Virus record (IMG/VR): IMGVR_UViG_3300024231_000017
Location: 1-53,055 of that record
Direction: 5' to 3' (one strand)
Origin: a virus
Length of the DNA stretch: 53,055 bases
Shown: positions 27,067 through 51,186 of the stretch, piece after piece
Layout: every line of letters starts with the position of its first letter
How positions within the stretch are numbered: position 1 is the first letter of the stretch
Translations under genes and position numbers: made by a program
Notes under the pieces: model-generated
What the model saw: only the letters and a program-made list of their open reading frames with translations
What the model was told of the DNA's origin: nothing
Databases searched by the model: none

Positions 27067-27095
27067 TTGACAATGGATTTCCTTGAGATTACAGT
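27067..27095 (+). promoter_or_regulatory. early rightward sigma70 promoter
   Basis: TTGACA (27067-27072), 17-base spacer, TACAGT (27090-27095). The -35 is consensus. It lies at the head of the rightward early operon and would give a 5' leader of about 225 nt before the first ATG at 27326. Confidence 0.75.
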
Positions 27096-27101
27096 GCGAA
27101 C

Positions 27102-27252: not shown

Positions 27253-27306
27253 AAGTGTCTGCATCTACCTGATGCACTGATGAGGGCAAGCAAGCCCGAA
27301 ACACTT
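27253..27306 (+). ncRNA. hammerhead ribozyme 1 (type III)
   Basis: All hammerhead parts are present. Stem III is AAGUGU (27253-27258) with ACACUU (27301-27306). The cleavage base is C27259 after GU. Stem I is the hairpin UGCAUC-UACCU-GAUGCA (27260-27276). The core is CUGAUGA (27277-27283). Stem II is GGGC-AAGCAA-GCCC (27284-27297), followed by GAA and A15.1. The open ends lie in stem III, so it is type III. The SD hairpin of the first early gene follows two bases later. Cleavage would detach the upstream leader. Confidence 0.93.
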
Positions 27307-27308
27307 AA

Positions 27309-27320
27309 GCCTGAGGAGGC
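27309..27320 (+). promoter_or_regulatory. SD hairpin 1 (GCCT-GAGG-AGGC)
   Basis: A 4-bp stem presents GAGG in the loop, five bases before the ATG at 27326. The same element precedes six early genes. Confidence 0.8.
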
Positions 27321-27325
27321 ACATC

Positions 27326-27733
27326 ATGACTACATTTCACCAGCAAAACATACACCCCGTTCTGTCTTTAACGTGGGATCTGTTAGCAGAGCCAGCCATC
27401 AGCCCAAACCGCAAAGCGCGATTGCGGCAGGATGCGCGGAAGTATCAGTTTAGAGACAGACTAGCCTGTCGTGCAGAACTTAAGCAGGACATTGACTACT
27501 GCAAAACCAGTGATGGCTTTGTCTATGTCGAGAACTTCTCGAGGGACTGCGATAACTTCGAGCGCAACTGGATCAGTAAGGTACCTGCTCATATCACAGC
27601 GCTGGAGTTGCACGAGAATCGCTTGCATGACGGCGCCGAGGGTCTCACCTTCTGCAACCTGCTCGATCAGGAAGCAGTAGATTCCTTCCAGTCTATGGCT
27701 CGAGACCGCAATGCCGAGCGCTACGGATACTGA
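27326..27733 (+). CDS. early protein of unknown function, first gene of the operon
   Basis: A 135-aa protein, start ATG 27326 after the GAGGAGG ribosome-binding hairpin. The N-terminal part is basic (SPNRKARLRQDARKYQFRDR) and the C-terminal part acidic (ITALELHENRLHDGAEGLTF). No domain is recognised. First position behind the early promoter and a self-cleaving leader suggests immediate expression on infection, typical of host-takeover proteins. Function unknown. Confidence 0.65.
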   Translation: MTTFHQQNIHPVLSLTWDLLAEPAISPNRKARLRQDARKYQFRDRLACRAELKQDIDYCKTSDGFVYVENFSRDCDNFERNWISKVPAHITALELHENRLHDGAEGLTFCNLLDQEAVDSFQSMARDRNAERYGY

Positions 27734-27784
27734 GTAAGCACATCGAAGCCATTCACCGAGTGGCTTCTATTGTATTTATTCAAC
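27729..27784 (+). terminator. terminator-like repeat A
   Basis: The stop codon of the 135-aa gene lies in this block. GAAGCCATTC-ACC-GAGTGGCTTC (27745-27767) forms a 10-bp hairpin followed by the U-rich TATTGTATTTATT. The block is repeated at 28292-28347 with compensatory changes in the stem. It may be a leaky terminator, an RNA end or an RNase III site. Confidence 0.65.
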
Positions 27785-27787
27785 CCA

Positions 27788-27799
27788 GCCTGAGGAGGC
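27788..27799 (+). promoter_or_regulatory. SD hairpin 2 (GCCT-GAGG-AGGC)
   Basis: Same SD hairpin as at 27309, five bases before the ATG at 27805. Confidence 0.8.
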
Positions 27800-27804
27800 A
27801 AATC

Positions 27805-27981
27805 ATGACTATTCAAGTCCTAGTAAAAAACCAATACGGAAACCAAGTGATCTACCCAGCATGTGAGATAGGCGAGACCTTCGCCGCTATTGCCGGAACC
27901 AAGACCCTGACCGATGAGACCCGCGCCCTAATGAAGCGACTCGGCTATCAGTTCGAAGCCAAGGTGGAGGTGCAGCTATGA
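27805..27981 (+). CDS. 58-aa early protein
   Basis: Start MTIQVLVKNQYGNQVIYPAC, set by the SD hairpin. The product seems a small alpha/beta protein (AAIAGTKTLTDETRALMKRL then a final strand FEAKVEVQL). Short proteins of this shape ('vkNqyGn...yPac..a..Fa.iagtktLt') are known from plasmids and phages, often beside ardC genes (recalled, not searched). It is coupled to the next gene by ATGA. Confidence 0.65.
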   Translation: MTIQVLVKNQYGNQVIYPACEIGETFAAIAGTKTLTDETRALMKRLGYQFEAKVEVQL

Positions 27982-28091
27982 GCCGCAATGAAAAGATAGT
28001 CCTCACCATAGCTGTCTGTCTGGGTGTCCTACCCATGACCTTCGTAATGTCAATGATGATCATCTCGCTCAAAACTGGAGTGCCATTATGA
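27978..28091 (+). CDS. 37-aa single-span membrane protein
   Basis: The ATG overlaps the upstream stop (ATGA) and the TGA overlaps the next start. The product MSRNEKIVLTIAVCLGVLPM then TFVMSMMIISL is one hydrophobic helix with a basic N-terminus. Coupling on both sides supports a real gene. It is likely an inner-membrane early protein; function unknown. Confidence 0.65.
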   Translation: MSRNEKIVLTIAVCLGVLPMTFVMSMMIISLKTGVPL

Positions 28092-28300
28092 GATTAGAAA
28101 TACTGCAAGAAATCCAAGAGTACAGCCAATGGCTGTTTGATGACTGGGAAGAGGGCTGCGGTATCAGTAGTTCTGACTTCCACACCCCGATTAGAAGCGT
28201 CTTGTTAGACCACGGGATTAAGTGGGATGACATAGGCGAGACGTGGCAGGAGTTCTGCCGCACAGCAGTCAGCAACGGCATAGCAGACGCAACTGAGTAA
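28088..28300 (+). CDS. 70-aa acidic early protein
   Basis: The product starts MRLEILQEIQEYSQWLFDDW and is acidic throughout (GIKWDDIGETWQEFCRTAVS). It may be a DNA mimic or a small inhibitor of a host factor, but no motif shows this. It is coupled by ATGA to the membrane peptide and ends inside terminator-like repeat B. Confidence 0.6.
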   Translation: MRLEILQEIQEYSQWLFDDWEEGCGISSSDFHTPIRSVLLDHGIKWDDIGETWQEFCRTAVSNGIADATE

Positions 28301-28347
28301 GCACATCAAAGCCATTCACTGAGTGGCTTTTATTGTATTTATTCCAA
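28292..28347 (+). terminator. terminator-like repeat B
   Basis: Nearly identical to 27729-27784. AAAGCCATTC-ACT-GAGTGGCTTT (28308-28330) forms the same 10-bp stem, with the end pair changed from G-C to A-U, so pairing is kept. TATTGTATTTATTC follows. The upstream gene's TAA lies in the shared block. Confidence 0.65.
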
Positions 28348-28348
28348 C

Positions 28349-28360
28349 GCCTGAGGAGGC
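28349..28360 (+). promoter_or_regulatory. SD hairpin 3 (GCCT-GAGG-AGGC)
   Basis: Same SD hairpin, seven bases before the ardC-like ATG at 28368. Confidence 0.8.
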
Positions 28361-28367
28361 ACGCATT

Positions 28368-29243
28368 ATGAAGACAGATATTAAAGAAACAATTACCGCT
28401 GAAATTATCACCATGATCGAGAGCGCACAGGCATCCGGTGCAGACTGGACAATGCCCTTCAAGTCACTTGGCGGCAAGCCTACCAATGCCAACACGGGCG
28501 TAGCCTATACCAGACTAAATGCGCTATGGCTTGGGCTGCAAGGCTACCGCACTGTGGCTACTTACAGACAGTGGGAGGATATCGGCTACCAAGTCCAGAA
28601 AGGCTCAAAGGGTGTGGCTATCAGTGCCCCAATGACCGTGAAGGACAAAAAGACCGGCGACTCCAAGATGATCGGATTTCGCACCGTCAAGGTATTTCCT
28701 GCCAGTATGGTGCTCCACGCTGAGACCGGCGAGCCTTGGGTAGAGCCTGAGACCGAAGCGGTGGATCTCACTGAGCGGCTAGAACTGGCTGACCAGTACG
28801 TTAACAATCTAGGCTTTGATATTCGCCACTCTGGCGAGGGCAGGGCTTACTACTCACCCGCTGGTGACTTCATCCACATGCCAGAACGTGCGGCATTCAG
28901 CGCTACCAAGACATCCACAGCGACTGAGAATTACTACTCCACACTGCTGCACGAATCGGCTCACTGTACCGGTCACAAATCGCGCCTAGATCGCTTAGAC
29001 CTTAAGAACAAAAAGGGCTACGCCTTCGAGGAGTTGGTGGCTGAGTTGTCTGCCGCGTTCCTATGTAATCAGCTGGATGTGTCAGGCGCTCCTCGTGATG
29101 ATCACGCTCAGTACTTAGCGTCTTGGCTTGATGCTCTAGGTGGTGACAGTGACTACATCTTTAAGGCGGCTAGCGAAGCGCAGAAAGTGGTTGACTGGAT
29201 GGATGCAATGCAAGTTGCCCTTCCCTTAGAGGAGGCGGCATAG
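28368..29243 (+). CDS. ardC: ArdC-like antirestriction protein
   Basis: About 291 aa, start chosen after the SD hairpin. The N-terminal 120 residues match the ArdC ssDNA-binding domain (DWTMPFKSLGGKPTNANTGV, YTRLNALWL, GSKGVAISAP). The C-terminal half is a zincin-like metallopeptidase with HESAH (195-199) and a downstream EELVAE (221-226) likely to supply the third ligand. ArdC proteins protect incoming DNA from restriction, so early expression fits. The conserved HExxH suggests the protease-like fold is intact. Confidence 0.9.
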   Translation: MKTDIKETITAEIITMIESAQASGADWTMPFKSLGGKPTNANTGVAYTRLNALWLGLQGYRTVATYRQWEDIGYQVQKGSKGVAISAPMTVKDKKTGDSKMIGFRTVKVFPASMVLHAETGEPWVEPETEAVDLTERLELADQYVNNLGFDIRHSGEGRAYYSPAGDFIHMPERAAFSATKTSTATENYYSTLLHESAHCTGHKSRLDRLDLKNKKGYAFEELVAELSAAFLCNQLDVSGAPRDDHAQYLASWLDALGGDSDYIFKAASEAQKVVDWMDAMQVALPLEEAA

Positions 29244-29244
29244 G

Positions 29245-29278
29245 GGTGCGGGGATTTATTTCCCCCGCCCAAATTTTT
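29245..29278 (+). terminator. intrinsic terminator after ardC
   Basis: GCGGGG (29248-29253) pairs with CCCCGC (29263-29268) and is followed by CCAAATTTTT. Its last U is the first base of ribozyme 2, so readthrough would be followed at once by self-cleavage. Confidence 0.75.
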
Positions 29279-29335
29279 CTAGCTGATGAGCAGCTGAGTG
29301 GTTCTCAGTCGAAACGCCCAGCGGGGCGTCCTAGA
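29278..29335 (+). ncRNA. hammerhead ribozyme 2 (type I)
   Basis: Stem I is UCUAG (29278-29282) with CUAGA (29331-29335). The core is CUGAUGA (29283-29289). Stem II has a G-C closing pair, a CA bulge and GCUGAG/CUCAGU (29293-29298/29304-29309) with loop UGGUU. Then come GAA and stem III ACGCCC-AGCG-GGGCGU (29314-29329), with cleavage base C29330. Open ends in stem I make it type I. Cleavage would leave a 28-nt leader carrying only the SD hairpin before the ATG at 29359. Confidence 0.95.
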
Positions 29336-29343
29336 TAACCAAT

Positions 29344-29354
29344 GCCGAGGAGGC
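29344..29354 (+). promoter_or_regulatory. SD hairpin 4 (GCC-GAGGA-GGC)
   Basis: A shortened form of the SD hairpin, four bases before the ATG at 29359. Confidence 0.8.
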
Positions 29355-29358
29355 AACC

Positions 29359-29586
29359 ATGTACTACATCCAGCAAGAGGGATCACCCTTCGCTTACCAA
29401 GCAAAAACATTAACCGAATATGCATCGCGTTTGACCGGCGGGGATACCGGAGAATATAGGGTATACAAAAGCAAGAGCGCATATCACGAGGGCTTCGACT
29501 TTACCGCCTATGATCATATAGACGGCAAGCTAAAAAAATCTAAAGCCCAGCCAGTGGCTGTATTAAATCGCTGGCTTTCTAGCTGA
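29359..29586 (+). CDS. 75-aa early protein
   Basis: The product begins MYYIQQEGSPFAYQAKTLTE and contains GEYRVYKSKSAYHEGFDFTA. It is basic at the C-terminus. No family is recognised. Its TGA (29584-29586) lies inside the catalytic CUGAUGA of ribozyme 3, so a terminating ribosome would cover the ribozyme core. It stands alone between two ribozymes. Confidence 0.65.
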   Translation: MYYIQQEGSPFAYQAKTLTEYASRLTGGDTGEYRVYKSKSAYHEGFDFTAYDHIDGKLKKSKAQPVAVLNRWLSS

Positions 29587-29633
29587 TGAGCAACTGAGTG
29601 GTACTCAGTCGAAACGCCGTGAGGCGTCCTAGA
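29578..29633 (+). ncRNA. hammerhead ribozyme 3 (type I)
   Basis: Stem I is UCUAG (29578-29582) with CUAGA (29629-29633). The core is CUGAUGA (29583-29589). Stem II has ACUGAG/CUCAGU with loop UGGUA. Then come GAA and stem III ACGCC-GUGA-GGCGU (29614-29627), with cleavage base C29628. Compared with ribozyme 2, one stem II pair changes from G-U to A-U and stem III is one pair shorter with a GNRA loop. That supports conserved structure. It overlaps the end of the 75-aa gene. Confidence 0.95.
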
Positions 29634-29643
29634 TAACCAAACT

Positions 29644-29654
29644 GCCGAGGAGGC
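29644..29654 (+). promoter_or_regulatory. SD hairpin 5 (GCC-GAGGA-GGC)
   Basis: Six bases before the ATG at 29661, 15 bases downstream of the cleavage site of ribozyme 3. Confidence 0.8.
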
Positions 29655-29660
29655 AATCAA

Positions 29661-29939
29661 ATGGAAATCAAGCGAAAAATAGTAGCTCGCGCCGCACAGC
29701 GCATTATTGGTCTGCTCACTTTTGATGAGCTAACCGCAATCTACAAAGCCGAACAAAATGCAACACACGCGTGTGCTCAGCTCGGAATGAGCGCCCAGAT
29801 AGCCACCCAAGATACAGCGCGAACAGTGGCGCGAGAAATTATGGAGGGGCTTTCTGATTATCAGATCGACCAGATGGGGCACGAACTAAAACTGTCGGCG
29901 CGAGACCTGACTAAATACACGGCGGAGGTGGCAGCATGA
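29661..29939 (+). CDS. 92-aa early protein
   Basis: The product starts MEIKRKIVARAAQRIIGLLT, then FDELTAIYKAEQNATHACAQ and LSDYQIDQMGHELKLSARDL. It appears all-helical, with a basic N-terminus and an acidic middle. No motif is recognised. The next gene is coupled by ATGA, and both lie downstream of ribozyme 3 and would share one processed mRNA. Confidence 0.65.
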   Translation: MEIKRKIVARAAQRIIGLLTFDELTAIYKAEQNATHACAQLGMSAQIATQDTARTVAREIMEGLSDYQIDQMGHELKLSARDLTKYTAEVAA

Positions 29940-30196
29940 TCACCTTTAGAATGGTAGTAAAAGAATCATTTTACACCGAGTACGCAGTAGAGGCTGAATC
30001 TGAAGTAAAAGCGCGACTCCTTGTCCGGAAGGGTCACGGGAGAGTCGTTAATGACGGCTACACTGACTGGGACATCATAGCAATAGAGCAAGACAATCCG
30101 CCTCCCCCATTTTTGCCTGTAGACCCAGACGACATCGCCGAGATTCAGGCAGCAATGCAGGAAAATGCTGACGACAGAATGACGATGCCCCACTAA
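29936..30196 (+). CDS. 86-aa early protein
   Basis: Start MITFRMVVKESFYTEYAVEA, coupled to the previous stop (ATGA). The first 60 residues look like a small ferredoxin-like fold (SEVKARLLVRKGHGRVVNDG, DWDIIAIEQDN), the rest is a Pro-rich hinge and acidic helix. The stop TAA is immediately before stem I of ribozyme 4. Function unknown. Confidence 0.65.
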   Translation: MITFRMVVKESFYTEYAVEAESEVKARLLVRKGHGRVVNDGYTDWDIIAIEQDNPPPPFLPVDPDDIAEIQAAMQENADDRMTMPH

Positions 30197-30315
30197 TCCA
30201 ACTGATGATCGCAGCTAGTTACTGCGTGAAACCTAGCGTCCACCTGACGATAAAGAGTCATGCGGGAATATCACCCAGAATCTACACGGGTGCCCCATGG
30301 CTTCTAGGTATTGGA
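30197..30315 (+). ncRNA. hammerhead ribozyme 4 (type I, 67-nt insertion in stem III)
   Basis: Stem I is UCCAA (30197-30201) with UUGGA (30311-30315). The core is CUGAUGA (30202-30208). Stem II is CGCAG-CUAGUUA-CUGCG (30210-30226) flanked by a U-U pair. Then come GAA and stem III ACCUAG (30231-30236) with CUAGGU (30304-30309). The cleavage base is A30310 (GUA, an allowed NUH). Loop III is 67 nt and contains CGUC-cacct-GACG and CACCC...GGGUG hairpins. The stem pairings are perfect. The unusual features are the large loop, the U-U at 10.1/11.1 and A at the cleavage site. Confidence 0.85.
30260..30307 (+). CDS. possible 15-codon ORF inside ribozyme 4
   Basis: The frame MREYHPESTRVPHGF ends with TAG at 30305-30307, which lies within the 3' strand of stem III. 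A ribosome reaching the stop would open that stem. AAAGAG is present upstream but spaced poorly. The ORF may be accidental; it is listed because it could couple translation to ribozyme activity. Confidence 0.2.
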   Translation: MREYHPESTRVPHGF

Positions 30316-30324
30316 AAACTAAAT

Positions 30325-30335
30325 GCCGAGGAGGC
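30325..30335 (+). promoter_or_regulatory. SD hairpin 6 (GCC-GAGGA-GGC)
   Basis: Seven bases before the ATG at 30343 and 14 bases after the ribozyme 4 cleavage site. Confidence 0.8.
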
Positions 30336-30342
30336 AATTATT

Positions 30343-30516
30343 ATGGGAACTCAATACGAAGACTGCACCCCGACGTGGGAAGAAACCGCTCACCTGCTGG
30401 TTCACACCCTGCAATGCAATCCCGACAACGAAAGTGCTCGGGCAGAACTGTTACGCATGGGCAAGATCATCGACCAGCAACAGGCTTACATCAAGCAATC
30501 TAAGGAGGTGGCTTGA
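30343..30516 (+). CDS. 57-aa early protein
   Basis: Start MGTQYEDCTPTWEETAHLLV, set by the SD hairpin; the longer reading would run through ribozyme 4. The sequence THLLV...LQCNPDNESARAELLRMG reads as a small helical (TPR-like) protein, ending KIIDQQQAYIKQSKEVA. It shares an ATG overlap with the next HTH gene. Function unknown. Confidence 0.65.
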   Translation: MGTQYEDCTPTWEETAHLLVHTLQCNPDNESARAELLRMGKIIDQQQAYIKQSKEVA

Positions 30517-30716
30517 TGCAGGCAGAACTTGAGAGGGTTGCCAATCGATTGCAGCTATTCATCTTGAAACGCAATCGCAGGACTAGGATTCAAAGGCTTT
30601 CGGGCGTCCATATAAACACCATGGCACGCTTCCTAGCCGGTGAAGATATCCGACTGCACACCCTGATCAAGATCGAGAAGGCTTGCCTGCAACTTCAATC
30701 GGAGGATGAATTATGA
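30516..30716 (+). CDS. small HTH DNA-binding protein
   Basis: A 66-aa protein, start MQAELERVANRLQLFILKRN. Residues about 22-60 form a helix-turn-helix: RIQRLSGVHINTMARFLAGE, followed by HTLIKIEKACLQL. This is the usual pattern of Cro/XRE-like phage regulators. A switch regulator of the early operon is a fair inference. Confidence 0.7.
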   Translation: MQAELERVANRLQLFILKRNRRTRIQRLSGVHINTMARFLAGEDIRLHTLIKIEKACLQLQSEDEL

Positions 30717-30886
30717 GCATGTATAAATGCGGTGACTGCACATTCTGGGGTGAGTATGACGAGGTTCTGATCGTGCGTGAGATTGATCATGAGCCATACG
30801 GCGATCAGACAGTAGAGCGTGAGACCATCTACTGGCATTGCCCCTTATGTGATAGTGAAGATGTAACAGAATGGCTTGAAGCCTGA
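30713..30886 (+). CDS. 57-aa zinc-finger-like protein
   Basis: The ATG overlaps the upstream stop (ATGA). The product has CGDC near residues 6-9 and CPLC at 43-46, two CxxC pairs spaced as in a zinc ribbon, and acidic stretches in between. Small zinc proteins of this type are common at the ends of phage early operons (recalled, not searched). DNA or protein binding is inferred. Alternative ATG six bases later. Confidence 0.7.
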   Translation: MSMYKCGDCTFWGEYDEVLIVREIDHEPYGDQTVERETIYWHCPLCDSEDVTEWLEA

Positions 30887-30965: not shown

Positions 30966-30990
30966 GACGCTACGGATGGCGTCCTTTTTT
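30966..30990 (+). terminator. intrinsic terminator of the first early operon
   Basis: GACGC (30966-30970) pairs with GCGTC (30979-30983), followed by CTTTTTT. It ends the ribozyme-bearing operon. Confidence 0.8.
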
Positions 30991-41602: not shown

Positions 41603-42052
41603 CTACATCCCCAGCAAGTAATACGAACCAGCAAACATAGCCAGCACCGCGATTGTTGCACCGATGTTCTTCGCCACATCGCCAATCTGACGCTGCTTCT
41701 TGAGCCTCGCCAACCTAGCCTTCTCCAGCTTGTGCTTGTGATCGAGTAAAGACTTGTTCTGGATCATGAGCATGTCACGCCAGACGTGCTTAGGGGTTAT
41801 CTTCTTCAGCTCTTTCTCGTGCTGCCTGATCGCGTCCTTAGCCCATGCCAGCTCCAGCGCTTCTTCCTGAGTGAGCACATGGTCTCCAGCCTTGGTGGCT
41901 TCTTCGATGCTCTCAACCGCCGTCTTGCTCTCGGTCAGACTGGTAAACAATCCGGTCAATCCCTGTAGGTGATCACCCGACTCCTTAACGGTTTTGATGC
42001 CCTCGTTTAAGGCTTTGAGCACCCCAACAACTGCACTGATCTCAGCTATCAT
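41603..42052 (-). CDS. 149-aa coiled-coil protein with C-terminal membrane helix
   Basis: A helical protein beginning MIAEISAVVGVLKALNEGIK, with KDAIRQHEKELKKITPKHVW and KLEKARLARLKKQRQIGDVA before a C-terminal membrane segment (ATIAVLAMFAGSYYLLGM). The start overlaps the 3045-aa gene stop (ATGA). Together with the next gene it forms a pair of small membrane proteins at the operon end. Lysis or ejection-pore roles are possible. Confidence 0.6.
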   Translation of the reverse strand: MIAEISAVVGVLKALNEGIKTVKESGDHLQGLTGLFTSLTESKTAVESIEEATKAGDHVLTQEEALELAWAKDAIRQHEKELKKITPKHVWRDMLMIQNKSLLDHKHKLEKARLARLKKQRQIGDVAKNIGATIAVLAMFAGSYYLLGM

Positions 42053-45000
42053 TTCATCTCTCTCTCGGCTTTCCTGTAAGCCTTGTTGTATATGTCGAAT
42101 ATCTTGTTCTCATTCTCCAGCAGCTTGTCCAATAGTTCTCTGCGACGCGCCTCAGGAATATCCTGACTCTCTACCAACTTACGGGTCTTGGATATGCTTC
42201 TTAACTCTCGGTTGGACGCCTTGTAGAGACTGTTGCGCCCACCTTCAATCACGGGGATAAAGGATTGGTACTGGTTTCTGAGTCGGTCCAGCTCGGCTTG
42301 ATCTCCTGCCTCGATAGCATCTTTCAGCTTCGCCTCGATCTTTCTGGTCTCATCCCAGTTGGCATAGAACTCAAACCTGTCTTCGTACTCCGAGGGGCTC
42401 TCAAAGAAGGTGCCAACAATCGGTAAGTCTTGTTTCCTGAAATCCTCGTCCGCCATCATTCTTGCCGCAACGTCTGAAGACTGGCTCACAAAGCGCCCTA
42501 CACCCCCCAAGAAGTATTCATACACATACTCCATCTTGTCTGGGTTCATAGAGATGTAACCGTCCTTGTACTTGTCTCCGCCCGTGGCATCGTTGAGGAA
42601 CTCGGCTGCTGCTGTGAAGGCTTTATCAGTAGACCGTCGAGAGTTGTATGCGTTTGATCGCTCAACAATGAACGGGTTTTGCTCAATGTATATATCGCTA
42701 CCAAAGAAGTTCTTATTAGCCAGCATGTCCAAATGAACTTCGAGCAGGTCAGGATAGAATCCTCGCGCTTTCTCTTCCCAGTTATCGCCGCTAGAGGGAG
42801 CAACCGGAACGAAATTCAGTAACGCGTTCTCCCACAGATACACTGCCGACTCTTCTGGGGTGTTGATGTCGAACGCCATTTCAGCACTCAAGCGACCAAT
42901 ATTGGTGAAGAAGTTGTACCCGTAGGGGGCGGGTAGAGCGAACCCTTCTTCGCTGCTGTAATTGATCAGTAGTGCCCGGTTCTTCGCATGCTCAGGAAGA
43001 TCGGCATAGACCTTCTCGTCATCGTCATCATCTTCTGAGTTCAGAATGTTAATCACGGCAAGTGTAGCCCCTAGACCTATAAGTCCCACTGCCGTTTTCT
43101 GTGCGGTTGTGACCTTGCCTTCGCCGCCACCCAAAGCCTGAGCTATGTTGACATTGCCCTGTACTGCGGCGTTAAAGAACAGGTATCCGGCATTGACTAC
43201 GGCTGTGTTCTCACCCTTACGGTTGAAGTTAACGGTAAGGTCTTTCGCTAATGTCGCTGCGGTCTGCCTATCAGTTCCCGCTTTACGTGCCTCGATGTAA
43301 GCAGACAGTCGTATAGCGTTTTCCATGGTGGTGTTGAAGTCTTCCACCCAGTTACCCACAGCTCGCAAAGCCTCACGGGTCATGCCTTTCTTTAGCTTGT
43401 TCTTCATTATGCGTAACTGCTCATCCTGATCGCGGACCAGCATCATGCCTGTTGACGCACCGTCCTCCATAAACTCTGCCGCATACTGATCTAGAGTGCC
43501 TTCTCTTACAGGCTTACCGCGAAGCACGCGATACATAGACCTCATTGAGGGCAGATAGCTCTGAGCCATTTTCCCGATAAGGTTCTCGCCTTGTACTCTG
43601 CTGCCTTTCTTGTCCTTCTCTGCAAGCGAATACATAAGACCCGTCTGAACATCACGCAGCGGGTTAACCAGCCCCCATGAAGGGTTGTAGTTGATCAACA
43701 TGTTTCTGCGGAATGTTTGGAATCGAGTCGCCAGAGTTAGCAGCTTGCTTACGTCGTCGTTAGCCCTGCTCAGCATGGGCACGCTCATGTTCTGTAGCGC
43801 GTGATTTAGGCTGTCACTCTTAAACTCGATAAAGAATGTCTGCCCACCCTTCTTGACCTCTACATACTTGGGGTCACCGTTGGGTCTAACATCTCTAGAC
43901 ATCTGGTCGAGGTCTTGCTGCGTCAGTTCGTCGCTTGGCTTCGGTGGTCTGAACTTATTGTTGTATATGGTATAGGAGTCGCTGTTACCTAACTCACTCA
44001 AAAGCTCTAATAGGGTTTGGGCGGTTTCATTTTTTCTCGCCCGAATAATTTTTCTCTGAACATCTTCGATAGCGGTAAACAGAGGATTCACAGGCAATGT
44101 CTTTCTACCCTTAGCCCTCATGCTCTCGCTGCCTACGATAGAGAAGCCTCTAGACTTATCGCCAGACTTGTAGGCGTCGCCATTTTCTTCAGCAGCAAAA
44201 CCTTTAAGGGGCACATAGAACTCGTAGGTATCTTCCCAGTCTGAGCGAGAGTCTTCGTCAAGCAAGCCTGCCTCTACCATGCGGTCTCGCTGATACTGAA
44301 GCATCTCGTAGACCTTGTCGGCAATACGGTCCATATCAGCCTTGGTGCCTTCCCGTTCCGCCAAAGCTAGAACGCTCTCCGCCTCGGCATACGTCATCCC
44401 TGAGCCTGTATCTTGGAACGCCAGTGGCAGTGTTTGGTATTCGTTAAGTTTTGTGCGCTGAGTCTCGAGGGCGACACTGTGATCGACACCGACATCTGCC
44501 AATAGGCGCTCTATCTCCCGCTCAGCCCTAGCAATGTTTCTCTCGCGCTGAGCCTTAACCTTTTCAGCAATAACGTCATTGCGCTCCGCCGCGTGCTTCG
44601 CAATAAGGTAGGTTCCTACAGCATCTGGATCGACCTGTAGCTCGGCGATTAAATCACCAAGCGGGTCCACATAGTTTTCGTGGAATGCGTCTAGATCGTT
44701 CTGCACTTTACCGTGCGACAGGTTTTCTTGATCTCTAGGTGACAAGCCAGCAGGAAGCCGCCCCATCTCTAGGAAGTCAGCCGCTTGATTCTCAAAATCT
44801 TCTAAGGGTGCGTAACGGTCCACCAAGGAACGGTATACCTTCTTACCCTTCAGCCTTCTGGCAAGATCAGACTGTGCGTCTATCTCATCATTGTAGCTAA
44901 AGGCATTGGTTGATGGGCTTCCGTCGTCTAGAGTTCCTGTCTCTTTGTTGATCTGCTTCTTCTTGATGTACGAATAATTATCAACATCGTCGTAGACAAC

Positions 45001-48000
45001 GTCTTTGGCTATTACTAGATTTCCTACTTGAATCACTTCACTGGCAGATAAGACTGGGGTCTGGGTAGCCAGATCATAGAAGAAAGTGTGACGCTCTGGG
45101 TTCATGGAAACCTGAGTCCAAGCCGGATCATCCATAGCGGCTATAAAGTCTAGCCTGTTCTGCTCATGATCTGCCGCAACGTAATTACCCTCGATAGTCG
45201 CGATGGTATTTTTATCTGCACCCATGGCTATATTAGTTGCACCTTTTTCTGGAGATGCAAATGAAGCGTTCGCTAGACGCAGAGTTGGGTAGTAACCAAG
45301 ACGAGTACCAGACGCGCCCTTGAAGGGAGCGCCCTCTTTACGAGGTCTCGCCGCATGAGCAGTAACAACATCAGCCCGCTCATCTTTTGATAATGTTGGG
45401 TGGCTGTGGGCGGGGATATCTAGCCTTGAGCCAGTTCTCTGCCCGTCTTCAAGCACATCCGCTAACCAGTAAGTTTCTTTACTAGGTGTGTTCGGCTTTT
45501 CTCTGCTCGTCTTTTTCAGCGCATTGATGTAATGAGAGTCCGGCTTTAACGGAGCAATCATATCGGGATGCATGGGCTTAACATAACGACCTTCTTTTCT
45601 GAAGATGTCATTAAGCTCGGCGGCAGTGATCTTGCGATCAATTCGATCCTGCACCGCTTCCTTTAACTTGGGGGATATTCTTTCTTGCTCGGGTCTACGG
45701 GTCTCACGAATAGACCGCATGCCCTCTTCGTAGGTGTCTACGTAGTAGCCTGTGTCTTTGGTGTAGGGACCAAAGTACTTCGGGTCAACAACCATGAATA
45801 CAACGTCAGGCTCGCCCTTGTTGTAAGGCATGAATGTTCTTTTGTCCCAGTCCGCAGGAGCCTGAGAATCATCCCACTTGAGTCGAGAAACAACCTTGAA
45901 CCCGACATGCTGATAGATAATCGGAAGTTGCGTATCAAAGGCGTCAGAGTACAGCCCGCCCTCCTCAACAGCCAATGATGCCAAAGAGTAGGTTACGTTC
46001 TTGTGCCCGCCGTTGTTATAAAGAGACACTATTGTGTCGCCGTTTTCGATAGCTATTCCAGCTGCGCCATCTTCGGTCATGAACATCTGCATCTTTTGAT
46101 ATTCAGATTCAGGATACACATAGACCGCTGCACCATAGAGGTTGGCGTCTTTTCCTTCTTGAATCTTGCTTGCGAACAGCTTGGCGTTGGTTTTGTTTTT
46201 GGCTAGCTCAATGACTGTGCCGTTAAAGGAATCAACGGCAGCGAGCGCGGCTTTGGCTCCAGTCTCAAGCTCCCTCTTTTTGCCTGATACTTTTTTACCC
46301 GCTACGAGTACTTGAGAATATTTGCTAGCTCCTCGTCGGAAGCGTCTGGGTATATTTCCTTCATTTCCTCCACTCCCGCTATCAGATAGTCGGGGACTAC
46401 GAAGCTCTTTGTAGACTCTGTTTCGCTCATCTCGCCGTCCGGCGCCATTGGGGGGGCTGATTTCAACAGCTCTTTCAGAAGCATATTCTCTTTGAGCTGC
46501 CTCTCTTTCTGAGTACGCATCGACGAGTTCGTCGAGCTTTTGTCTGCTAACGCCTTCTGCTTCATACCAAGGTGTCCCTTTATCAAATTCACTGACTTTA
46601 AAGTCTTTGGGCACTATACCATTCTTGGGTTTAGGTATCTCGTCCAAAAACTTTCTAAATGATTCTTTACTAAACTTGTACATCGTGCCGCTAGATTTGG
46701 GGTACACGTAGTAAGGTGTGCCCTTATCGTCTCTTGCATAAATAGCTGCGGAGCGATACATGTCGCCCTTTCCTTCAGGGGCTCCAATGAATGCGTAGGG
46801 GTTGTCCTTACCAAGGATGTCCTTCTCAAGACCCTGCATGGTTGGGTGAGCAACGATCTGCCCCGAATCCCTTACCCAGCTTTCCCAGTGATAGCGACCA
46901 ATAGACGCATCTTCTGGTCTGCCCAGCTTCGTATACAGCTGCTTAAGTTTTGTGTTGAGGGAGTTCTCTATAGCCTCGTATCGGGCTGAGCCTCGAAGAC
47001 CACTAAACTCATCAGCCAAGTCGGCATAAATATTCTTGCCGTAACGGTCAGAATCCCACATTGAGTTCAGCTGAATACGGTCAAGAATTACCACGTCGTC
47101 ACGACCAATCATCAACTGGGCAAATGAGAAGACCTTGTTGTCTATTCCTGATCCCTGAACAATCAATTGGAATTGACGCCGAACCTCCTGAGTGGACATG
47201 TCGCTGTCAGCCATGATGTCGTGGACGCGCTGTAACTTTGACTGACCGCCGCTGTGCGGCTCTGCCAGCTTCTGCATCAGCTTGCCAAAGTCATTGGCGT
47301 TGGAGATTGCACCACGACCAAAAGAGCCATCAGGTATTAGCTTTCCTACCTGCTTAACCCATGCCTTAACGTCGGCATCGGACACATCGCCATCAAGCGC
47401 TTTCTGTGCCAGATCAGATACGGCAGTGCTTCCTGTCATCAGGTCAACAAAACCAGCTTCCTGACCTGAGGCTGTCTGCCGTCGAGACATCAAGCCCCAA
47501 AGCAGCAACTTGGCAGTGGCGTTAGGAGTCGCATCGCCTGACGCATATAAAGCGCCCATTCTTTCAGCGGTAGCCAAGCCGCGATTGGCAGCCTCTAGCT
47601 GCTCCGGTGTCAGCTTGGCATGAGTCTCTACCCATGAGTCCATGTCATTGTAGAGACGGATCAATCCATATGGCGGGGCTAGGGTTTCGGACTTTCCTGT
47701 TAGGTCTCTCTCAAACGCCAGCCATGCCTCTGGGCTCGATAGGGCGTCAGGGTGCTTAGCCACCACATCGACAGCACGCTGAATCTGCACCTCTGGGTCT
47801 TTCGTGGTGGGGGTAATCTTAACCACAGGCAGGGTCTTTTTCTCTCCAACCGAACCCTTAGACTTTTGCAGTAAGTACTCTGCACCCTTCTTAATAAAGC
47901 TAGGGTCATCAAGCAGGTCTTGATAGAGCTCAAACCTGTCTTCGTAGAGCCAGTCATAAGACATGAACTTGCCATCCTGTAGGATGACGATGTCTTCTTC

Positions 48001-51000
48001 TTCTTTGTTCTCGTCTAAAAGTCTCTGCTTGAGGTTCTCAAACTGATTGTCTTCGAGGGCTTTAAATCTGTGTCGCAACTGCTTTTCAGTCACCGACCCC
48101 TTTTCGTCTATATAGCTCCATGCTTTGAACTCGATATCACCCCCTACTTGCGGGTCTAGAGGGAGGTTGTAAGAATTTTCTCCCGCATCCATCAATTTTT
48201 GGCGGTGGGCTATCAGCTCATCAATGGTTTCCTGCTTGGTCTCGCCCAGCAGCCCATCAAGCGCGTCAATCTTCCCGTCGTCCGAGGTGAAGTAAACCTC
48301 ATCGCCAGCTTCCTTAGCGTCATCATCGAAGTACAGGGTGTAGCGATCACCGTCTGGGAAGGTGACAATGTAGTTGCCAGTTTCTTCGTAGTTAGTGGCT
48401 TTCTTAAAGGTAGGTTTTTTATCGGTAGCCTTGAGGACTACCGGTGTGCGTTCTGGGTCTGCCGCCTCTATTGAAGTGGCAGGTGCGGGCTCTACTTCAG
48501 GCTCTTGTACTTCTGGTCGTTCACGTTGTCCAGCTTCTTCTTGGACCTGTCCCTCCACTGAGGTATCGGCTCTCCCATCTCCAAGGCTTGCTTCGCCATC
48601 TGATCCAGTTGGTTCAGGCTGTACGACCTCGACGCTTCCGGGCTCTGGCGGTGCCCGAACTTCTCCTGATATGCCTTCAGGTTGGGTGGTGTCGGGATTC
48701 TCTTGACTTGGACTCGGTTCATTTGCGGTCTCCTGCACTACGGCAGTTTGTAAGTTGCTGTCTCTAATGTCCTTGATGTAATTATACGCTTGCGGAGCCA
48801 GCTCTTGTAGTTGTTTAGGGTTTGAGTGAAACAGTGCGCCAAGCTGAGCGAACACTTCTTCCCTGTAGTTTGCGTTCAAGCCTGCGTTATCTTGCTCAAC
48901 ATCTAAGATGTCATCGGCAAGGTTGTTAAAGGGGTAGTCAAACCTCTCACCAACAGCTGTACCGTCCACCCAGTTGTCGTAGATTTCCTGCATGATGTCA
49001 CCCATAACAACCGTAGGTGCATCAGCAGCCTCATCTATCTCGATGCCGAATCGACTATCTTTGTCACTCAAGCCCATTGCAAAATCTGCGGCGTGATAGA
49101 CCTCGTGAGTCATGGTCCATGCCAGTTCGCTTAACTGCTCCGAATCAGTGAGTGAGCCACTGAGCAAGTCTTCATTGACAGATATACCCCTAGCGTTACG
49201 ACCCGTCAGAGCCGGAGCATCAACCTCAGACTCTTTGTGTACATACACCCCAGTGACTGAATCCATAAATGACGTTGGTACACCATTAGCCGACAGATCA
49301 GCCATCACGCCCGCTACGCTATCTGTTACTTGAGCAGCGTCATCGCCATAAACCTCATCTATCGTCGGCAGGCTCTTGCCCTTAGGCTTATCTGTGGTGG
49401 CAATCTTTAATGATTCATTGCGATCAAAGATTCTGTCTACGTCGTCCTGATCTATAGCCTCAACAATCACATCGGTATTGTTTGGGTCCATTGCCTCAGG
49501 AGTCGCAGCCTTCATAGACAGCTGCATAAGCTGCTCTTGGACTGGCTGATCGACTGGAGATAGCTCACCATCCCATCGGTGTGCTGGACCTGCGTCTCGT
49601 GTACCCTCGGATACAGCTACACCCCCAAATGCTGGGGCTGGCTTGAAGTCATCTACTATGTCTGACTGCGGGGGCTGAGGTGAAGGGGGTAATGTGTTTT
49701 CCCCGAATCCGGTATTTTGCGTATCCGCAGACACGGCAGGCTCTGGAAGATCGCCTTCGGGAAGATCGATAGGCTCTTCGGCGGCATTGAAGTCTAACAG
49801 TCTGGCTTGGTTTAGCTGCTCTTCTGTGTAAGGGCGATTGGTCTCAGGGTCTAGTGCGCCTTCAGCGTTCCATGTTGTGGCTAACTCGCCAGTGATTGGA
49901 TCAATAGGGCGCTCACTTGGGACCATATCGCCAAGGCTTGTGCGACCATTAGCTGCGTTGTCTCTAGCAACCTCGTACATTTGTCTTATTCGACCAGCAA
50001 ACTCAGGATCATTTACAGATCGAGTCCGAACCTCTTTCGCTTCGTCTCCAAGGTCAACGTCGGAATTGTAGCCTCCGGTTGCCGCCTTAGCTCCGGCGCC
50101 GACAACACCCGTAGCGCCGCCAAACAAGAATCCTGCTGCCGCTGACTCAACAAGCGCATTTCTTTTCTGCTGATTGTTGATGTAGTCGAAGTAATCTCTG
50201 GTCTCATTTTCGCTGTAGTTATTGTTAACGAAAGATATAACCTCTTCCTCAACAATGAGCTGCAATGCTTCAGTCCCGCCCTCAACGCCCATCTGAGTGG
50301 TAACGTCCTTAACAAACTCCCCGACCCAAGCAGGCTTGTCGTTTATTGCTCCCGATATAAACTCGCCAGCCTCATCTACCTTGCCTTTAGGGAGGAACTT
50401 GCTTAAAGCACTAAAGGCAGGAATAGCGTTAAGCGACCCTATCGCCAAGCCAGATAGAACTGCTGCCTTTGGAGCCTCTACCCCAGTCTCATCTAACGTC
50501 CTAGCAAACGTGCTTGACGCACCCTGCTGTGTCCCATACGCCAAGGCACCAGCTGTCGCTCCCCTAGTGCTGATCTTTTTGACTTTATCTTTCGCAAACC
50601 GATCTGCCATATTGCGGGCAATCTTTTCCGCAGCTTTATCCTCTATACCCTCTTTAATTAGTCTCTCTGTTGCCTGCTTGGACAGAGTGTCCGCCATCTC
50701 GGTGACGCCTTTCTTTACTGCGGTTTTAGCAAGCAATCCGCCAGCTCCCGCACTAACAGTCATCATGGCTAGGTCAGGCGCGACAGAACCCAGCGTATAG
50801 GCAGCCCATGCCCCAAAGTCAGTGGCACTATCTATGTCCTGAAACGTACTGTCCGGCTGGTATTGTTGGGCTTCGGCAGTTTTATCTTGGTAATACTGCA
50901 TGCCCTCAGAAACCATTTCTTCATCGTCAAGCGCAGAGCCTGCCAGAGCCTTAAGACCTCCGCCGAGAGCTTTAAAGTTAGCAAGTCCGCCCTTAAATCC

Positions 51001-51186
51001 ACGGCTAAAATTACCATCGGCTTCTGGCTCTGTTGAAAGTGCTGCCTCGGGTGCTGGCGGGGTTTCTTCTGTGGGTGCAGGTTGACCCTCAGTAGGCTGA
51101 AGGCTGTTGTTTTCTTCTTCTAATAAAGCATCTCGTGCTGCGTAGTACTCGCCTTTAGAAAACTGAGTTACAGACTTTAACGGCAT
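42049..51186 (-). CDS. 3045-aa polyvalent internal virion protein (gp16-position)
   Basis: A giant protein with several parts. A Pro/Glu-rich N-terminus precedes hydrophobic Ala/Gly segments around residues 130-170 and 345-370. A zincin-like HEVYH lies at 694-698 within MTHEVYHAADFAMG. A Glu/Pro-rich linker follows, then mixed alpha/beta modules with a GNAT-like piece (YQHVGFKVVSRLKWDDSQAP, then PDVVFMVVDP). The C-terminal region has AKNRALLINYSSEEGFALPA and DDDDDEKVYADLPEH, resembling LPD38-type domains of large polyvalent proteins. Size and location match T7 gp16-like ejection proteins, so it probably enters the cell with DNA. Confidence 0.75.
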   Translation of the reverse strand: MPLKSVTQFSKGEYYAARDALLEEENNSLQPTEGQPAPTEETPPAPEAALSTEPEADGNFSRGFKGGLANFKALGGGLKALAGSALDDEEMVSEGMQYYQDKTAEAQQYQPDSTFQDIDSATDFGAWAAYTLGSVAPDLAMMTVSAGAGGLLAKTAVKKGVTEMADTLSKQATERLIKEGIEDKAAEKIARNMADRFAKDKVKKISTRGATAGALAYGTQQGASSTFARTLDETGVEAPKAAVLSGLAIGSLNAIPAFSALSKFLPKGKVDEAGEFISGAINDKPAWVGEFVKDVTTQMGVEGGTEALQLIVEEEVISFVNNNYSENETRDYFDYINNQQKRNALVESAAAGFLFGGATGVVGAGAKAATGGYNSDVDLGDEAKEVRTRSVNDPEFAGRIRQMYEVARDNAANGRTSLGDMVPSERPIDPITGELATTWNAEGALDPETNRPYTEEQLNQARLLDFNAAEEPIDLPEGDLPEPAVSADTQNTGFGENTLPPSPQPPQSDIVDDFKPAPAFGGVAVSEGTRDAGPAHRWDGELSPVDQPVQEQLMQLSMKAATPEAMDPNNTDVIVEAIDQDDVDRIFDRNESLKIATTDKPKGKSLPTIDEVYGDDAAQVTDSVAGVMADLSANGVPTSFMDSVTGVYVHKESEVDAPALTGRNARGISVNEDLLSGSLTDSEQLSELAWTMTHEVYHAADFAMGLSDKDSRFGIEIDEAADAPTVVMGDIMQEIYDNWVDGTAVGERFDYPFNNLADDILDVEQDNAGLNANYREEVFAQLGALFHSNPKQLQELAPQAYNYIKDIRDSNLQTAVVQETANEPSPSQENPDTTQPEGISGEVRAPPEPGSVEVVQPEPTGSDGEASLGDGRADTSVEGQVQEEAGQRERPEVQEPEVEPAPATSIEAADPERTPVVLKATDKKPTFKKATNYEETGNYIVTFPDGDRYTLYFDDDAKEAGDEVYFTSDDGKIDALDGLLGETKQETIDELIAHRQKLMDAGENSYNLPLDPQVGGDIEFKAWSYIDEKGSVTEKQLRHRFKALEDNQFENLKQRLLDENKEEEDIVILQDGKFMSYDWLYEDRFELYQDLLDDPSFIKKGAEYLLQKSKGSVGEKKTLPVVKITPTTKDPEVQIQRAVDVVAKHPDALSSPEAWLAFERDLTGKSETLAPPYGLIRLYNDMDSWVETHAKLTPEQLEAANRGLATAERMGALYASGDATPNATAKLLLWGLMSRRQTASGQEAGFVDLMTGSTAVSDLAQKALDGDVSDADVKAWVKQVGKLIPDGSFGRGAISNANDFGKLMQKLAEPHSGGQSKLQRVHDIMADSDMSTQEVRRQFQLIVQGSGIDNKVFSFAQLMIGRDDVVILDRIQLNSMWDSDRYGKNIYADLADEFSGLRGSARYEAIENSLNTKLKQLYTKLGRPEDASIGRYHWESWVRDSGQIVAHPTMQGLEKDILGKDNPYAFIGAPEGKGDMYRSAAIYARDDKGTPYYVYPKSSGTMYKFSKESFRKFLDEIPKPKNGIVPKDFKVSEFDKGTPWYEAEGVSRQKLDELVDAYSEREAAQREYASERAVEISPPNGAGRRDERNRVYKELRSPRLSDSGSGGNEGNIPRRFRRGASKYSQVLVAGKKVSGKKRELETGAKAALAAVDSFNGTVIELAKNKTNAKLFASKIQEGKDANLYGAAVYVYPESEYQKMQMFMTEDGAAGIAIENGDTIVSLYNNGGHKNVTYSLASLAVEEGGLYSDAFDTQLPIIYQHVGFKVVSRLKWDDSQAPADWDKRTFMPYNKGEPDVVFMVVDPKYFGPYTKDTGYYVDTYEEGMRSIRETRRPEQERISPKLKEAVQDRIDRKITAAELNDIFRKEGRYVKPMHPDMIAPLKPDSHYINALKKTSREKPNTPSKETYWLADVLEDGQRTGSRLDIPAHSHPTLSKDERADVVTAHAARPRKEGAPFKGASGTRLGYYPTLRLANASFASPEKGATNIAMGADKNTIATIEGNYVAADHEQNRLDFIAAMDDPAWTQVSMNPERHTFFYDLATQTPVLSASEVIQVGNLVIAKDVVYDDVDNYSYIKKKQINKETGTLDDGSPSTNAFSYNDEIDAQSDLARRLKGKKVYRSLVDRYAPLEDFENQAADFLEMGRLPAGLSPRDQENLSHGKVQNDLDAFHENYVDPLGDLIAELQVDPDAVGTYLIAKHAAERNDVIAEKVKAQRERNIARAEREIERLLADVGVDHSVALETQRTKLNEYQTLPLAFQDTGSGMTYAEAESVLALAEREGTKADMDRIADKVYEMLQYQRDRMVEAGLLDEDSRSDWEDTYEFYVPLKGFAAEENGDAYKSGDKSRGFSIVGSESMRAKGRKTLPVNPLFTAIEDVQRKIIRARKNETAQTLLELLSELGNSDSYTIYNNKFRPPKPSDELTQQDLDQMSRDVRPNGDPKYVEVKKGGQTFFIEFKSDSLNHALQNMSVPMLSRANDDVSKLLTLATRFQTFRRNMLINYNPSWGLVNPLRDVQTGLMYSLAEKDKKGSRVQGENLIGKMAQSYLPSMRSMYRVLRGKPVREGTLDQYAAEFMEDGASTGMMLVRDQDEQLRIMKNKLKKGMTREALRAVGNWVEDFNTTMENAIRLSAYIEARKAGTDRQTAATLAKDLTVNFNRKGENTAVVNAGYLFFNAAVQGNVNIAQALGGGEGKVTTAQKTAVGLIGLGATLAVINILNSEDDDDDEKVYADLPEHAKNRALLINYSSEEGFALPAPYGYNFFTNIGRLSAEMAFDINTPEESAVYLWENALLNFVPVAPSSGDNWEEKARGFYPDLLEVHLDMLANKNFFGSDIYIEQNPFIVERSNAYNSRRSTDKAFTAAAEFLNDATGGDKYKDGYISMNPDKMEYVYEYFLGGVGRFVSQSSDVAARMMADEDFRKQDLPIVGTFFESPSEYEDRFEFYANWDETRKIEAKLKDAIEAGDQAELDRLRNQYQSFIPVIEGGRNSLYKASNRELRSISKTRKLVESQDIPEARRRELLDKLLENENKIFDIYNKAYRKAEREMK

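Follow-up and report, generated by a model that had tools for sequence, protein, structure and literature searches.

Layout of the operon

The IMG/VR virus record IMGVR_UViG_3300024231_000017 was analysed over its entire length of 53,055 bases (the window), with emphasis on an accessory operon whose genes are separated by hammerhead ribozymes (HHRs) and by long two-part hairpins, here called element B. The phage is known from metagenomes only. Its gene content (terminase, head-tail adaptor, internal virion protein, tail fibres, O-like initiator, primase-helicase, RecE-like exonuclease and integrase) suggests a temperate tailed phage. The operon occupies 27.1-31.0 kb on the + strand and is flanked by - strand genes. 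A promoter-like site (TTGACA-17-TACAGT, 27067-27095, +) is the sole one in the operon region, where such matches are rarer than in shuffled sequences (1 vs 4.6), and a terminator-like hairpin followed by a T run (30966-30983, +) lies behind the last gene.

Between these two sites, the following features are arranged on the + strand. HHR1, a type III hammerhead (27253-27306), lies in the operon leader and precedes g1 (27326-27733, 135 amino acids (aa)). The first copy of element B, B1 (27731-27782), is followed by g2 (27805-27981), which encodes a small protein, and g4 (28088-28300, 70 aa); a 37-aa frame at 27978-28091 lies between g2 and g4 and overlaps both. The second copy, B2 (28294-28345), precedes the gene for an ArdC-like antirestriction-type protein of 291 aa with ArdcN and MPTase-PolyVal domains (28368-29243). 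Three type I hammerheads follow: HHR2 (29278-29335) in front of g6 (29359-29586, 75 aa), whose UGA stop codon lies within the core of HHR3; HHR3 itself (29578-29633) in front of g7 (29661-29939) and g8 (29936-30196), which share an ATGA overlap and have no element between them; and HHR4 (30197-30315) in front of the overlapping genes g9 (30343-30516), g10 (30516-30716) and g11 (30713-30886). Every non-overlapping gap of the operon holds a candidate cutter, and overlapping genes have none.

Identification of the hammerheads

A first-pass annotation, made from the sequence alone, had proposed four complete hammerheads on the coding strand. When both strands of the 53 kb were scanned with a descriptor (CUGANGA, stem II, GAAA, NUH, and stems I and III), exactly these four sites were returned, HHR1 as type III and HHR2-4 as type I, with the same predicted cuts after 27259, 29330, 29628 and 30310. 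The core CUGANGA and GAAA and a NUH at the cleavage site are present in all four. By chance, 0.02 sites per window would be expected, and none scoring at least 14 was found in 100 dinucleotide shuffles. An independent covariance model, for which 67 type I sites from other contigs were used and the window copies left out, recognised HHR2, HHR3 and HHR4 at 75.9, 68.0 and 50.3 bits (E 2e-21, 7e-19 and 3e-13) and gave no further match in the window. The Rfam covariance search suggested in the first-pass annotation gave a mixed answer: at gathering scores no hammerhead was found in the window, but HHR1 matched Hammerhead_3 (RF00008) at 40.0 bits (E 4.4e-8 on an 81-nucleotide (nt) query; gathering score 48.5). 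HHR1 was missed in a permissive Rfam search of 4.6 kb and picked up with the short query.

HHR2 and HHR3 have an identical stem I, and that of HHR4 is different. In HHR2, loop II (UGGUU) pairs with the tail (AACCA). HHR4 carries a U10.1-U11.1 mismatch, which, together with the two non-ribozyme hairpins, corrects the earlier reading, and also a 67-nt insertion in stem III (30237-30303). This insertion is kept in nine other contigs, with invariant CACCTGACGATAAA and AGAATCTACACGGG and a covarying outer stem, and it persists in L005 and L084 though stem II of the ribozyme is deleted there. It is possible that the insertion is an aptamer or another functional RNA domain; the aptamer reading was set aside, and kept as a lead, since the insertion has no Rfam match and occurs in one narrow lineage.

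Conservation in related phages

Related contigs were gathered from IMG/VR using the ArdC-like protein, hammerhead patterns and the primase as starting queries. In 79 loci with a primase relative, hammerheads are confined to 2.6-8.5 kb past the primase and to the operon strand, and they form arrays of up to seven per contig between genes of the same operon. Wherever primase identity reaches 71% and at least 6 kb past the primase is covered, the locus contains at least one hammerhead. Loci at 52-56% primase identity hold no hammerheads, and this is true also of four in which over 7 kb can be seen. No primase relative, and no match for one HHR pattern, was found in GTDB species genomes; likewise, no DNA-level relative of the operon was found in cultured phage records, where two HHR queries had no full match. 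Arrays occur in more than one lineage, because they are also carried by the distantly related L038 (three weak window homologues) and by a group of contigs (L069, L075 and L076) with three hammerheads each and no detectable window homologues. In L038 (IMGVR_UViG_3300031841_005063), six hammerheads of types I and III are mixed at 282-2797 of a 4.7-kb contig.

Ten unique relatives of the type III hammerhead were collected, and together with the Rfam match they support its three-stem fold. Where present in these contigs, type III is the first hammerhead of the array (L038 has more further on), and since most such sites share sequence, this leading position is largely one event. Several relatives that lack a leading type III hold instead, in the leader, a hairpin of 10 base pairs (bp), a 2x2 loop and another 10 bp.

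In the type I relatives, the three stems around the core are kept with covariation (score 0.540 for 67 distinct sequences vs at most 0.106 with the partners slid), although this evidence for stems I-III is partly circular because the descriptor required those stems. Loop II also forms a pseudoknot with the 3' tail, a pairing that the descriptor did not demand; the patterns used for collection constrained the loop in part but never the tail. This pseudoknot is paired in 87.8%, and each of its five pairs shows changes on both sides (UAGUU/AACUA, UGGUU/AACCA, UGAUU/AAUCA and others). Pseudoknots of this kind are described as important for fast cleavage by Perreault et al. (PMC3088659).

The core is canonical in 70 of 84 unique model matches, a count in which decayed copies are under-represented because the model was trained on canonical cores. 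The 14 others comprise four with U3-A8 in place of C3-G8, one U3-G8 intermediate, six with an extra base beside N7, two with C at position 4 and one without stem II. The U3-A8 swaps and the U3-G8 intermediate are located at 6118 in L004, 10708 in L113, 6644 and 7830 in L112, and 5331 in L110. The extra base beside N7 (CUGAAUGA core) is found at 10914 and 11262 in L006, 3375 and 3646 in L007, 1071 in L010, and 6344 in L159, and in most of these copies the stems and the pseudoknot are intact. Earlier work had already reported U3-A8, an A6 insertion of low activity, and a U10.1-U11.1 mismatch like that of HHR4 (PMC3088659).

Element B and exchange at gene boundaries

Several gaps that hold no hammerhead contain element B, a conserved two-part hairpin with an upper stem of 9-10 bp, a small internal loop and a lower stem of 9-11 positions. 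We found 42 copies in two sub-classes; the two copies in the window have fold z values of -6.35 (B1) and -4.57 (B2). The upper stem covaries, pairing there having been required by the search; in the lower stem, most positions are invariant and complementary, and both-sided changes are few. This is the layout of a T7-type processing site, that is, an irregular hairpin of about two helical turns with an internal loop, placed between cistrons. T7 RNAs from the gaps 0.4/0.5, 0.7/1, 1/1.1 and 1.2/1.3 have a similar layout, and we take the gaps 0.4/0.5, 0.7/1 and 1.2/1.3 to be the RNase III sites R0.5, R1 and R1.3. T7 R1.1, in the gap 1/1.1, is cut by RNase III as an RNA of 60 nt whose internal loop is 4/5 (PMC6121014). 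By this analogy, RNase III may act on element B. A new ribozyme was also considered for element B and rejected in favour of the RNase III reading, because it has no Rfam match and few conserved unpaired bases.

Hammerheads and hairpins trade places at the same gene boundaries. The gene at 27326 lies behind a type III hammerhead in the window and behind type I in L062, L123 and L043; that at 27805 lies behind element B in the window and L070, behind type III in L068 and L103, and behind type I in L116; and in front of the ArdC gene, the window and L010 have element B, and L007, L056 and L078 have a type I hammerhead. More broadly, 276 boundaries were scored in 23 operon regions, some of them near-identical. 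At 113 of them, where genes overlap or are no more than 15 nt apart, a score of coupled was given with no element search; the other 163 are gaps, with a hammerhead or variant in 67, a long hairpin in 35 and another hairpin in 40, all these counts being approximate because gene calling was automatic. In the open literature searched, with subscription papers outside it, we found no report of hammerheads and RNase III-like hairpins trading places at the same boundaries, and this replacement seems to be new here.

The placement relative to genes is also uniform. A Shine-Dalgarno (SD) sequence and a start codon follow 69 of 70 canonical hammerheads, typically 28-39 nt past the predicted cut (median 31, interquartile range 29-36). 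The preceding gene has its stop codon right at the hammerhead's first base (median 0) or within the ribozyme. Of 55 unique leaders, 54 place the SD in or next to a hairpin loop closed by at least 4 bp, compared with about 50% expected with shuffled flanks, and the flanks vary yet stay complementary (GACC/GGUC, AUCC/GGAU, UGCC/GGCA). In the window, each gene start behind a gap has its SD in such a small hairpin (GCCUGAGGAGGC or UGCCGAGGAGGCA; 27309-27320, 27788-27799, 28349-28360, 29343-29355, 29643-29655 and 30324-30336), whose stems covary in relatives. The SD hairpins could be a shared regulatory or insulating element.

Discussion

We consider it probable that hammerheads and RNase III-type hairpins are interchangeable cistron separators, by which one operon transcript would be cut into mRNAs. 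The presence, conservation, covariation and placement of these elements and their replacement at orthologous boundaries were observed directly, and because close relatives keep the hammerheads, often swapped with hairpins at the same boundaries, one long message is probably cut in this way. Since a different, classical processing signal takes the place of the hammerheads at the same boundaries, the replacement is evolutionary evidence that transcript cutting matters there. We infer cleavage, RNase III action, and effects on mRNA stability and translation. A single transcript would run from near 27096 through the ArdC-like operon to about 30990, and the four hammerheads would fold co-transcriptionally and cut it at the predicted positions, with B1 and B2 as further boundaries. 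A type I cut would leave the upstream mRNA with the folded ribozyme body at its 3' end, and the type III cut in the leader would leave the first mRNA with that body at its 5' end. Each product would carry one gene or a translationally coupled group behind a short leader, uniform in kind, with the SD in a small hairpin, and the separators would insulate each cassette from its neighbours.

The first-pass annotation had likewise proposed that the operon transcript is cut into units, which fits the promoter- and terminator-like sites, the cutter candidate in each gap and the conservation. Its list of units was incomplete, however, because gaps without a hammerhead usually hold a hairpin, and two of the two-part kind lie in the window. 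The stretch 27326-29243, given there as one piece, is probably cut twice more, at B1 and B2, so that the predicted units are g1, g2-g4, the ArdC gene, the 29359 gene, the 29661-30196 pair, and 30343 onwards.

Several points weigh against cistron separation by cutting. Nothing recognisable was found in 21 of the 163 gaps, some relatives carry core variants expected to be weak (the A6 insertion), and the promoter and terminator are consensus matches. Cleavage and the resulting transcript ends are predictions, and RNase III is proposed for element B from its layout. On the last point, element B could instead be an intrinsic terminator or attenuator, in which case only the hammerheads would cut and the operon would be graded by termination. 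A terminator scan does flag both window copies, and some copies end in six T, but many have no U run, the conserved extended lower stem and internal loop are not needed by a terminator, and the layout matches T7 R0.5, R1, R1.1 and R1.3; we regard termination as less likely than not.

The other alternatives concern the hammerheads. Cleavage could serve as a regulatory switch, with ribosomes on the upstream gene blocking folding or a ligand binding the stem III domain of HHR4 as a natural aptazyme. The stop codons that abut or overlap the hammerheads and the invariant loops and covarying outer stem of this domain agree with such a switch, which is nevertheless improbable, as most hammerheads have short stem III loops with no extra domain, and the domain itself is of narrow distribution, is without an Rfam match and outlasts the loss of stem II. 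It is less probable still that cutting serves circularisation or ligation of the flanked units, as in retrozymes and viroid-like RNAs. Retrozyme RNAs are similar in size to the 298-nt unit 29331-29628, which is flanked by HHR2 and HHR3 with the same stem I, and the 5'-OH and 2',3'-cyclic phosphate ends predicted for hammerhead-flanked units could be closed to circles. The remaining units, however, measure 682 to 2071 nt, HHR4 has an unlike stem I, and circles give no explanation for long hairpins replacing hammerheads at the same boundaries; in the earlier arrays, circular products were sought and none was found (PMC3088659). We give slightly less credence again to hammerheads as selfish or recombination-hot-spot repeats, useless to the phage and spreading between cassettes. 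Cassettes have indeed been exchanged at hammerheads, since the same hammerhead with the stem III insertion precedes several different genes. Useless repeats would not readily account for a core kept in 70 of 84 matches while the stems diverge, for compensatory changes from C3-G8 to U3-A8, for the fixed distance to the SD, for confinement to one strand and one operon, or for the replacement by unrelated hairpins.

Hammerhead arrays as putative cistron separators have precedents. The first-pass annotation knew of no described phage operon with such an array, a claim that falls because clusters of this kind, their proposed part in processing, and their cleavage in vitro and in Escherichia coli were already published. 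Perreault et al. (2011) described clustered prophage hammerheads, including a triple array around ardA in Agrobacterium tumefaciens that cleaves in vitro and in E. coli; they called its purpose unknown and proposed a role in transcript processing (PMC3088659). As in those arrays, several hammerheads of different types stand between phage genes beside an antirestriction gene, flanking genes or blocks of genes in one predicted phage transcript, and the loop-tail pseudoknot, the proposed processing role and the rare core variants are the same. Our arrays differ in belonging to another phage lineage, in reaching seven hammerheads, in being kept in many relatives, and in their SD hairpins and alternation with RNase III-like hairpins, an alternation not mentioned in the available part of that paper. 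The predicted intergenic cutting of a polycistronic phage transcript resembles that of T7 early mRNA at R0.5, R1, R1.1 and R1.3, whose sites share the stem-loop-stem architecture of element B; T7 relies on host RNase III only, whereas most candidate cutters here are ribozymes.

A further parallel is RiboJ, an engineered hammerhead plus hairpin for which higher mRNA and protein levels are reported (PMC6206723). The order of hammerhead, small hairpin near the ribosome binding site and gene is alike, as is the trimming, here predicted, of the leader to a standard one, but the elements here are natural, arrayed in an operon and mostly type I, have the SD inside the hairpin, and are putative insulators. 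We suggest tentatively that ribozymes and RNase III-type hairpins are functionally interchangeable in one phage lineage and, with the SD hairpins, form natural RiboJ-like insulators. If so, nature would have its own equivalent of a device that synthetic biology uses as an insulator, and accessory (antidefence-type) cassettes could be swapped without retuning of expression. The interchange gives a testable form to the question of what bacterial and phage hammerheads are for.

Two side observations can be added. Between the ArdC-like gene and HHR2 (29244-29277), there is a GC-rich hairpin with a T run, which may be a leaky terminator, and similar sequences stand in the same place in several relatives. 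Outside the operon, a single open reading frame of 3045 aa extends over 42049-51186 on the - strand.

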